From contig CAUJHV010000005.1 of NCBI GenBank assembly GCA_963205115.1, positions 124,001 through 188,000 of the forward strand: 64,000 nucleotides of DNA, in the 5' to 3' direction. The translations under genes were made by a program, and so were the position numbers. Each line of letters begins with the position of its first letter. Positions within the stretch are counted from its first letter, which is position 1. Below, piece by piece: positions 20,470-61,408 of this stretch. The stretch comes from Pseudomonadota bacterium (lineage in GTDB: Bacteria > Pseudomonadota > Gammaproteobacteria > Burkholderiales > Burkholderiaceae_C). The notes beneath the pieces are model-generated. The model did no database searches. It was not told the origin of the DNA and saw only the letters and a list, made by a program, of their open reading frames with translations.

Positions 20470-20739
20470 GCGATCCGGTCGCCGGACGCAAGTGCGCCTC
20501 CAAGAGGGTGCGCCGGGAAGGCACCGACCCGTCCCTTCGGGGACAGGTCGCCCACGGCGACCAGGGGGAGCGACGGCTCCGGTGCGGGCCGAACAGGATC
20601 CGGGTCTCCCGGTCCTGTTCGGTAACCCCTCGGGGGCGAGCCCGGACGCACGACAGCACCGGCGTGCTGTCGCGCGCCTGGCGAGCCGGTTTGCCGTCCC
20701 GGCAAACCGTGGGCCGGCCGCCAGGCGGCCGGGGCCCAC
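20470..20739 (-). repeat. element A: train of about nine hairpins in the 3' region of the phosphoribosyltransferase gene, homologous to element B
   Basis: Consecutive inverted repeats read by eye; 76-nt ungapped alignment with 46052-46127 on the opposite strand. Confidence 0.85.
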
Positions 20740-20742
20740 CTT

Positions 20743-21264
20743 CTAGACCACGAATTTTTTCGCCAGCGCGTCGGGACGCATGTTGTCGTACTCCTCGAAC
20801 GGCTGGTGGATCCAGGGGCTCGAGGGCAGCGTTTCGACGAAGTAGTCGGGCGTGTACGAGGACACGCCCTTGCACCAGATGACGGCCGAACGCAGTTCGC
20901 TGATCGACGGCATGGCGCGCAGCCGGTCGACCACCGCACGCAGCGTGACGCCGGAGTCGGCCAGGTCGTCCACCAGCAGCACGCGGCCCGCCAGTTCGCC
21001 CTTGGGCATGGTGATGTACTTGGCCAGGTCCAGGCGGCCCTGGATCGTGCCGGCCTCGGCGCGGTAGGAACTGGTCGACATGATCGCCAGTGGCCGGTCG
21101 AACACGCGCGACAGGATGTCGCCGGGGCGCATGCCGCCGCGTGCCAGGCACAGGATCTGGTCGAACTCCCAGCCGGAATTCGCGACCTTGAGCGCCAGGC
21201 GCTCGATCAGCATGTGGTACTCGTCCCAGGAGACGTAGAGGTGCTTGCCGTCGTCGGTGAGCAT
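20743..21264 (-). CDS. phosphoribosyltransferase (hypoxanthine/xanthine PRTase-like)
   Basis: VLLVDDLADSGVTLRAVVDRL PRPP-binding motif. Confidence 0.88.
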   Translation of the reverse strand: MLTDDGKHLYVSWDEYHMLIERLALKVANSGWEFDQILCLARGGMRPGDILSRVFDRPLAIMSTSSYRAEAGTIQGRLDLAKYITMPKGELAGRVLLVDDLADSGVTLRAVVDRLRAMPSISELRSAVIWCKGVSSYTPDYFVETLPSSPWIHQPFEEYDNMRPDALAKKFVV

Positions 21265-45254: not shown

Positions 45255-46022
45255 ATGGTCACCAAGTCTCCTGCACACCGTCTGACGGCCTCCACGGCCC
45301 TCCACAAGGGTGACCGGGCGTACCAGCAGGACCAGGTCGTGGTGATTCCCCACCCACGGGAAACGGGATGCGTGCTGGCTGTCCTGGCTGATGGCATGGG
45401 CGGCAAGAGCGGCGGCCGCAAAGCCTCCGACCAGGTGCAGATGACCGCCCGGCAGATCTTCGAAAGCTTCGTGCCCAGCAAGGACGACGCGGCCGAAGTG
45501 CTGCGCCGCATGGTCATGGAAGCGCATCTCATGATCAAGCTGACGGCCATCTCTTCCGAGGAAGAGCCGCACAGCACGATGGCGGCCTTCATGATCCTGC
45601 CGGACCGGTCGGCCCACGTGGTGCATGCCGGCGATTCACGGGTCTACCACTTCCGCGGCGCCGAGATGCTTCAGCGCACGATCGACCATTCCTTCGTGCA
45701 GCGCCTGATCGACGAAGGCAAGCTGACCGAAGAGGCCGCGGCGGTGCACCCGCAATCCAATCTGCTGACGGGCTGCCTGGGCACGGAACAGGACCCGCCG
45801 GTGACGCTGTGGCGCATCCCGGCGCTCGAGCCGGAAGACACACTGATCGCCTGCAGCGACGGCCTGTGGCACTACTTCTCGCCCAAGGAAATCGGCGCCA
45901 TCCTCTATGCGCTGCCCCCGCGCGAGGCCGGCGAGATGCTGGTGTCCAAGGCGCGTCAGCGGGCACACGGCGGCGGCGACAACGTCTCGCTGGCCATCGT
46001 CCGGGTGGACCGATTGAAGTGA
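45255..46022 (+). CDS. PP2C-family serine/threonine protein phosphatase
   Basis: VLADGMGGKSGGRKAS, HAGDSRVY, ACSDGLWHY, GGGDNVSLAIVRV motifs. Confidence 0.93.
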   Translation: MVTKSPAHRLTASTALHKGDRAYQQDQVVVIPHPRETGCVLAVLADGMGGKSGGRKASDQVQMTARQIFESFVPSKDDAAEVLRRMVMEAHLMIKLTAISSEEEPHSTMAAFMILPDRSAHVVHAGDSRVYHFRGAEMLQRTIDHSFVQRLIDEGKLTEEAAAVHPQSNLLTGCLGTEQDPPVTLWRIPALEPEDTLIACSDGLWHYFSPKEIGAILYALPPREAGEMLVSKARQRAHGGGDNVSLAIVRVDRLK

Positions 46023-46160
46023 TCGTGAGCCCCCGGCCGTCTGGCGGCCGCCCCCCAAGGGGGCTCCGAACACGACCGGGAGACCCGGATCGTGTTCGGC
46101 CCGCGCCGGACACGCAGCGCCCCCTGGCCACCTGGCGGCGGCCTGTCCCCAAGGGGTTGA
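46020..46160 (+). repeat. element B: five-hairpin post-stop element, homologous to element A
   Basis: Hairpins at 46035-46049, 46052-46063, 46066-46099, 46126-46143, 46147-46156; alignment to 20561-20636 (reverse strand). Confidence 0.85.
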
Positions 46161-46179: not shown

Positions 46180-47277
46180 TCAGGTCAGCGACGTGTCGAC
46201 GTCGCGTTTTTCCAGGGCCAGGAATTCGGCGGACTGCATCTCGTTCAGGCGGGAGACGGTGCGCGGGAACTCGTGGGCGAGCGGGCCTTCGTTGTAGAGC
46301 TCGTCGGCCGGCACTTCGGCTGACAGGATGAGCTTGACGCGGCGGTCGTAGAGCACGTCCACGAGCCAGGTGAAGCGGCGCGCCTCGCTGGCCAGCCGCG
46401 GCGGCATCTGCGGGACGCCGGACAGCAGCACCGTGTGGAACTGCGAGGCGATTTCGAGGTAGTCGTTCTGCGAGCGCGGCCCGCCGCACAGGGTGCGGAA
46501 ATCGAACCACACGACACCGCCGGCGCGCCGCACGCAGCGCAGTTCTCGGTGTTCGATGTGCATCACCGGATCGTCGTCCTGCGCCTCGGCGAGGTCGTTG
46601 AAGGCCGACGACAGCGCGGCATCGGCCTCGGCGCCCAGCGGCGTGTGGTACAGCTTCAACTGCTGCAGCGTGCGCTGGCGGTAGTCGACGCCGGCATCCA
46701 CGTTGATGATCTCCAGCTTGTCCTTCAGCAGCGCGATCGCGGGCAGGATGCGGTCCCGGTGCAGCCCGTTCGGGTAGAGCCCATCAGGATGGAAGTTGGA
46801 CGTGGTGACGATGCTCACGCGGTTGGCGAACAGCGCATCCAGCAGCCGGTGCAGGATCATCGCGTCGGTGACGTGCGCGACGTGGAATTCGTCGAAGCAG
46901 ATCAGACGGAAGCGCCGCGAGATGCGCTTGCCGAGCTCATCCAGCGGATTGACCGTGCCCTTGAGCTCCTGCAGCTCGCGCTGCACCTCGCGCATGAATT
47001 CGTGGAAGTGCAGCCGCGTCTTGCGGGTCAGCGGCACCGACTGGAAGAAGCAATCCATCAGGAAGCTCTTCCCCCGGCCCACGCCGCCGTACATGTAGAC
47101 GCCCCGGGGGATGGGCGGCCGCGAGATCAGCTTGGTCAGCGCATTGCTGCGGCGGGCCTTGTAGTCGGCCCACTCGCGTTCGCAGCGCTCGAGCGCATCG
47201 ATCGCGCGCTGCTGCGCCGGGTCGCTGTGGTACCCCCGTTCGGCCAGCGTGGCCGCGTAGAGCTCACGAACGCCCAT
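46180..47277 (-). CDS. zapE: cell division protein ZapE (AFG1-like ATPase)
   Basis: GVYMYGGVGRGKSFLMDCFF Walker A, ICFDEFHVAHVTDAMIL. Confidence 0.95.
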   Translation of the reverse strand: MGVRELYAATLAERGYHSDPAQQRAIDALERCEREWADYKARRSNALTKLISRPPIPRGVYMYGGVGRGKSFLMDCFFQSVPLTRKTRLHFHEFMREVQRELQELKGTVNPLDELGKRISRRFRLICFDEFHVAHVTDAMILHRLLDALFANRVSIVTTSNFHPDGLYPNGLHRDRILPAIALLKDKLEIINVDAGVDYRQRTLQQLKLYHTPLGAEADAALSSAFNDLAEAQDDDPVMHIEHRELRCVRRAGGVVWFDFRTLCGGPRSQNDYLEIASQFHTVLLSGVPQMPPRLASEARRFTWLVDVLYDRRVKLILSAEVPADELYNEGPLAHEFPRTVSRLNEMQSAEFLALEKRDVDTSLT

Positions 47278-53211: not shown

Positions 53212-53340
53212 CTCTCGCTCACCTTTCGCCCCGGTTCGCCAGGGTTTCGATGGGTTGATCAACCTTCCGCGGCCCGGCTTCACCGGTAGGCGGATTGCGA
53301 CCCGCCTTGCTGTTGTCTCGGCCAGCAAGGGGACGTGGAA
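53212..53340 (-). promoter_or_regulatory. structured 5' leader of odhA/sucA (candidate sucA RNA motif)
   Basis: Five consecutive hairpins between 53229 and 53329 directly upstream of the sucA start. Confidence 0.55.
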
Positions 53341-61048: not shown

Positions 61049-61408
61049 TCAGGGCTTCTTGACGGCGTCGGCAGCCTTGCCAGCAGCGTCCTTGGCAGCG
61101 TCGACGGCCTTGCCGGCGGCGTCCTTGGCGGCGTCCTTGGCAGCGTCCATGGCCTTGCCAGCGGCATCCTTGGCAGCGTCAGCGGCAGCGCCAACAGCAG
61201 CGGAGGCGGCACCAGCGGCAGCGGAAGCAGCGCCAGTGGCGGCCGCGGCGGCGCCGGAAGCAGCGTCAACAGCGGCGGAAGCGGCGGCAGCCACGGGAGC
61301 CGGCGCAGCGGCGGGAGCCGGGGCGGCGGGAGCAGCAGCTTCGGGCTTCTTGCCACAAGCCACGAGAGCGGCGGCGGCAACCAGGGCGAGCAGGAGCGAC
61401 TTGTTCAT
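61049..61408 (-). CDS. alanine/lysine-rich repeat lipoprotein (LEA-like amphipathic repeats)
   Basis: Signal peptide with LVAC lipobox; repeated DAAKDAAGKA units. Confidence 0.8.
   Translation of the reverse strand: MNKSLLLALVAAAALVACGKKPEAAAPAAPAPAAAPAPVAAAASAAVDAASGAAAAATGAASAAAGAASAAVGAAADAAKDAAGKAMDAAKDAAKDAAGKAVDAAKDAAGKAADAVKKP

Follow-up and report, generated by a model that had tools for sequence, protein, structure and literature searches.

The question raised by this locus is what two similar intergenic stretches, A and B, represent within the window, as the whole stretch of 64,000 nucleotides analysed here will be called. A first-pass annotation had aligned the reverse strand of 20561-20636 with the forward strand of 46052-46127 and had proposed a dispersed multi-hairpin family with a compensatory base-pair change. 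The alignment was redone and is gap-free with 64 of 76 positions identical, the central 34-nt hairpins occupy 20589-20622 (reverse) and 46066-46099 (forward) as claimed, and a single pair is swapped between them, G-C in A and C-G in B (AACAGG..CCTGTT versus AACACG..CGTGTT). The differences described for the following hairpin (GGTCGCC/GGCGACC versus GGCCACC/GGCGGCC) were also found as reported. What had to be corrected were the limits, since A and B as delimited earlier are fragments of a longer, polar composite element, the true 5' start of which lies about 100 nt beyond the described limit in A and about 25 nt in B, and the true 3' end about 30 nt beyond it. A repeat search of the window already extended the pair to 81 nt with 83% identity (20556-20636 and 46052-46132). 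A scan for an 18-nt core with up to three mismatches yielded A and B as the only two sites in the window, while shuffled windows contained 0.12 matches on average and none of 100 shuffles reached two. The elements, their hairpins (P1 to P4) and their neighbouring genes, which were named by reading the open reading frames and not by family search, are the following:

20531..20740, reverse strand: element A in full extent, directly after the TAG at 20745-20743
20743-21264, reverse strand: phosphoribosyltransferase-like gene upstream of A
20716..20730, reverse strand: hairpin P1 of A, GGCCGCCTGGCGGCC
20637..20715, reverse strand: accessory module of A, two hairpins in about 80 nt between P1 and P2
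20626..20636, reverse strand: P2 of A, CCCCCGAGGGG
20589..20622, reverse strand: hairpin P3 of A with a bulged A
20546..20562, reverse strand: hairpin P4 of A, GGTCGCC..GGCGACC, followed by TGTCCCCGAAGGGA down to 20531
46027..46156, forward strand: element B in full extent, beginning 4 nt past the TGA at 46020-46022
45255-46022, forward strand: PP2C-type phosphatase gene upstream of B
46035..46049, forward strand: hairpin P1 of B, GGCCGTCTGGCGGCC
46051..46064, forward strand: P2 of B, CCCCCCAAGGGGGC
46066..46099, forward strand: hairpin P3 of B with a bulged A
46126..46143, forward strand: hairpin P4 of B, GGCCACC..GGCGGCC with one A-C mismatch, followed by TGTCCCCAAGGGG to 46156
46180-47277, reverse strand: ZapE-type ATPase gene, convergent, past the end of B

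Copies in related genomes define the order of the unit from 5' to 3' as a run of C, P1 (GGCCGCCTGGCGGCC), P2 (CCCCCCGAGGGGG), P3, a variable spacer, P4 and GGGG. P3 in full reads CCGAACCCGA-CCGGG-AGA-CCCGG-A-TCGGGTTCGG, and the 3' part of the unit CCCCTG-P4-CTGTCCCC-GA-GGGG. The unit measures about 130-140 nt, or up to about 210 nt with the accessory module. In pattern scans a 20-mer of P1 and the P4 pattern were concentrated in the same genomes, the reversed patterns giving 0 (P4) and 1 (P1) match in total, which indicates that the modules travel together, despite a few solo P1 palindromes. The accessory module of about 80 nt (window 20637-20715, reverse; also L128, L144, L164, L121 and L183) has conserved flanks (..CGCCAGGCG..CGTCCGGGCTCGG) and arms which are fully variable yet paired, and some orthologous elements have it while others lack it. 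At one locus (Q5) of strain DSM 1709 a P1 palindrome encloses a similar module in reversed direction. Two further arrangements were seen. Downstream of one element in Rubrivivax gelatinosus strains there are tandem repeats of the P4 module with a period of about 57 nt (L186 4774-4920, and L172), and in R. benzoatilyticus JA2 tandem pieces of the element alternate with a different palindromic repeat, GGGGTCAGGTCTCCTGAGACCTGACCCC (G062:C60 36230-36690; L382, L287).

That A and B belong to a dispersed family was borne out by a covariance model built from 26 copies, which found at least 79 copies at E<1e-10, spread over 13 of the 81 genomes searched in the same genus, Rubrivivax, weak matches with E of 1e-3 to 1e-5 being left out of the counts. 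The richest genome carries 24 copies (G016), followed by JA2 (G062) and R. gelatinosus IM 151 (G064) with 9 each, two of the latter lying at contig ends and possibly representing one locus, by G007 with 8, R. gelatinosus DSM 1709 (G023) and G077 with 7 each, and the closed genome G063 with 6. The genome of the window has 3, the third full copy being on contig C14, and a BLAST search revealed a weaker related stretch on C8. DSM 1709, IM 151 and JA2 were the named carriers in a scan of named genomes; carriers among metagenome-assembled genomes (MAGs) were assigned to Rubrivivax, Rhizobacter, Aquabacterium and Aquincola, and the few remaining carrier organisms are single MAG contigs. Presence is patchy even among close strains. 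The plasmid and phage collections searched contained no copies, and the sole pattern match among viral contigs (L352) is not a family member. The first-pass annotation had not recognised a named family, and Rfam likewise gave no match at A or B at gathering or relaxed thresholds, only unrelated weak matches at other loci. A literature search for a Rubrivivax repeat family retrieved no description of one.

The position of the element is strongly polar. Genes were called by length and third-position GC, and the upstream gene was on the same strand in 71 of the 78 copies having one. In 64 of these 71 same-strand copies P1 starts 0-14 nt past the upstream stop codon (54 TGA, 13 TAG and 4 TAA over the 71), the longer distances including cases in which a gene too small for the gene caller was seen by eye. 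The element thus abuts the upstream stop codon with its P1 end, in sense orientation and with a fixed order of hairpins. The asymmetry is also found in 25 convergent gene pairs, where the element lies clearly nearer to the gene on its 5' side than to that on its 3' side (Wilcoxon p=0.0016); downstream genes occur in either orientation. One copy (L187 3140-3292) lies between divergent genes, immediately next to a LexA-box-like palindrome, CTGTATGAATATACAG, and not after a stop codon.

Hairpins rich in GC directly past stop codons resemble intrinsic transcription terminators, and a terminator family is one possible explanation. A TTTT run occurs, however, in just 2 of 83 copies, copies lie inside apparent operons, four species having one between rpsA-type and ihfB-type genes, and separate canonical terminators are kept downstream of the element. 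At the GAPDH locus of JA2 it is placed between the stop codon and an intact T-run intrinsic terminator common to other strains, and other copies are arranged likewise. With this evidence the terminator explanation is hardly credible. The idea that P1 serves the genus at large as a terminator was dismissed too, its 20-mer being rare in element-free genomes.

From its positions inside operons and ahead of the GAPDH terminator the element is probably carried in mRNA, and its adjacency to stop codons could reflect a function selected in the host instead of mobility. Sense hairpins might block 3' exonucleases or tune ribosome release or downstream translation, with recombination spreading the element and selection keeping it. 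Such a beneficial element of mRNA 3' ends would account for the sense orientation within 0-14 nt of the stop codon, for the copies in operons and for the strong predicted RNA folding (z of -2.8 for B and -7.4 for A). The patchy presence among close strains and the unrelated host genes, which have no common function that could be seen, speak against it, as do the mismatches in P3 described below, and it is considered rather unlikely.

A second property is the maintenance of pairing. Among 26 copies found by similarity 98.8% of the cells in stem columns were paired and 11 of 22 pairs had changed on both sides, and pairing fell to 19-53% when the partner was slid by 1-3 columns as a control. In G016 the inner pair of P3, too, has gone from G-C to C-G in several copies, and where four species have orthologous copies between the rpsA-type and ihfB-type genes, several pairs distinguish their P3 arms, all of them fully compensated. 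Covariation beyond phylogeny was assessed in 83 copies with an APC-corrected G-test against a null in which Fitch substitutions were placed anew on a FastTree tree; in this test, which imitates R-scape without being R-scape and uses a tree derived from the element itself, four column pairs exceeded all 345,840 null pairs, two in P3, two in P4 and none elsewhere. The compensatory change noted by the first-pass annotation is supported. The bulged A of P3 was present in 83 of 83 copies collected with a search pattern which fixed that A, in 26 of 26 copies found by similarity, and, in an additional set collected with the model, in each copy which matched a regular expression itself requiring the A. 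As many copies were fetched with a pattern fixing the top of P3, conservation there is partly by construction. P3 keeps its pairing and its bulged A while its arms drift.

The first-pass annotation had ascribed such changes to selection on a folded structure. This is likely, but selection is not the sole possible source of covariation, and the pattern in P3 also fits copying from arm to arm in palindromes at replication, in which case the structure would be functionless. In favour of arm copying, intermediates are rare in P3: 99 cells carry an alternative Watson-Crick pair, 1 a G-T pair and 18 a mismatch. Against it, the bulged A was never corrected away, the mismatches are biased between the strands, and P1, unlike P3, shows many of them. 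Arm copying with a functionless structure is judged very unlikely.

The strand bias resides in the outer stem of P3, where the non-Watson-Crick cells comprise 12 A-C, 1 G-T and 6 others across different loci (p=0.003, with few cells, each counted as independent despite the relatedness of some copies). With a second set added the ratio of A-C to G-T was 16:3 (p=0.004); the second set alone, from which three misregistered copies had been dropped, gave 4:2 and was not significant. P1 and P4 have no such bias. A sense RNA helix would be expected to show the reverse of the rare G-T and common A-C seen on the sense strand. The complementary strand reads A-C as G-T, which is tolerated in a helix, and the bias therefore hints at the strand antisense to the host gene as the folding, constrained one.

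Eight loci were compared among close strains, and several of them, including Q1, Q2 and Q3, exist in clean filled and empty states. In the clearest case, Q2, the element of DSM 1709 separates a stop codon from the gene that follows, while JA2, IM 151 and G063 have the stop codon, a few nucleotides and the stop of the next gene; no target-site duplication is evident at this site. At Q5 IM 151 has a solo P1 palindrome where JA2 has a full element and, behind it, a second palindrome. Among filled orthologous sites there is further variation, the accessory module having been gained or lost and P4 repeated in tandem. The whole unit is thus gained or lost between strains, the direction being judged by parsimony without a species tree.

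Among the known repeats close to the element are the REP, BIME and REPIN sequences of enterobacteria and Pseudomonas, with which it shares short, multicopy, intergenic imperfect palindromes, mosaic composites and a frequent location near stop codons. Movement by a resident RAYT (Y1 tyrosine transposase), as in REP and REPIN elements, would fit an intergenic multicopy palindrome with a bulge, and REPs are also found close to stop codons (PMC3733652). The domain PF01797 of these enzymes was, however, not found in six of seven high-copy genomes (G016, G007, G023, the closed G063, G064 and G077), only G062 having it; it is also absent from G000, and its presence is not associated with the element over 81 genomes (Fisher p=1.0). 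By inspection of the alignment no GTAG/CGTC-type tag is conserved 5' of P1, P3 or P4, and the element differs from REPs in being a longer composite with a fixed module order and a 5' end strictly polar to the stop codon. Mobilisation by a RAYT is largely refuted by these data and highly improbable.

ERIC (IRU) and MITE-like repeats offer another comparison, as they are of similar length (about 130 nt), occur in a few to tens of intergenic copies, vary in presence between strains and can occupy 3' untranslated regions, and the element shares with them the presence or absence of the whole unit at orthologous sites. In contrast to these it consists of several hairpins instead of one long palindrome, and it has no clear terminal inverted repeats, only CCCC/GGGG ends, and no evident target-site duplication. 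Integron attC sites resemble it in fast-changing paired arms, an extra-helical base, fixed orientation after a stop codon and possible folding of the bottom strand. As a candidate they were rejected, since the R''/R' boxes RYYYAAC..GTTRRRY were both present in only 1 of 90 matches. The genus has attC-like sites of its own, of the type GCCTAAC..GTTAGGC and unlike the element, and such sites were noted near the integron integrase of G063. A chromosomal integron integrase (TIGR02249) was above the cut-off in 64 of 81 genomes, including G000:C35:74812-75756, and IntI was undetected in the high-copy genomes G016 and G007 in the survey of the genus.

Taken together, a new family of short, non-autonomous, interspersed REP/ERIC-like DNA elements, polar to stop codons and moved by something other than a Y1 enzyme, is regarded as the probable explanation. 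New copies would arise by copying and insertion of a folded single strand, probably, in view of the excess of A-C over G-T, the one antisense to the host gene, and the enzyme responsible would be other than a Y1/RAYT transposase; no mobilising enzyme for the element was found. Survival of copies would be confined to the space that separates a stop codon from the following terminator or gene. There they would ride in mRNA as hairpins of 3' untranslated or intercistronic regions and may be roughly neutral or mildly useful, for example to the stability of mRNA 3' ends. A bolder version, a new class of mobile hairpin in which the antisense P3 with its bulged base and free arms is recognised by a non-Y1 enzyme and inserted in fixed orientation at the 3' ends of genes next to their stops, appears unlikely.

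With the REP/ERIC-like family a beta-proteobacterial group gains a short interspersed repeat, and the case shows that REP-like spread is possible in genomes lacking a resident RAYT. The element attaches to stop codons strictly from one side, and it has presence/absence sites in the culturable strains R. gelatinosus DSM 1709 and IM 151 and R. benzoatilyticus JA2. These features make two questions testable, namely how such repeats find or keep the 3' ends of genes, and whether the host gene benefits or suffers from a hairpin placed behind its stop codon.

Two other features of the window were recorded. A sucA RNA motif (RF01070) scored 70 bits at 53216-53300 on the reverse strand, and 61058-61246 contains degenerate tandem repeats of the GCGTCCTTGGCAGC type, probably within a gene for a repetitive low-complexity protein.
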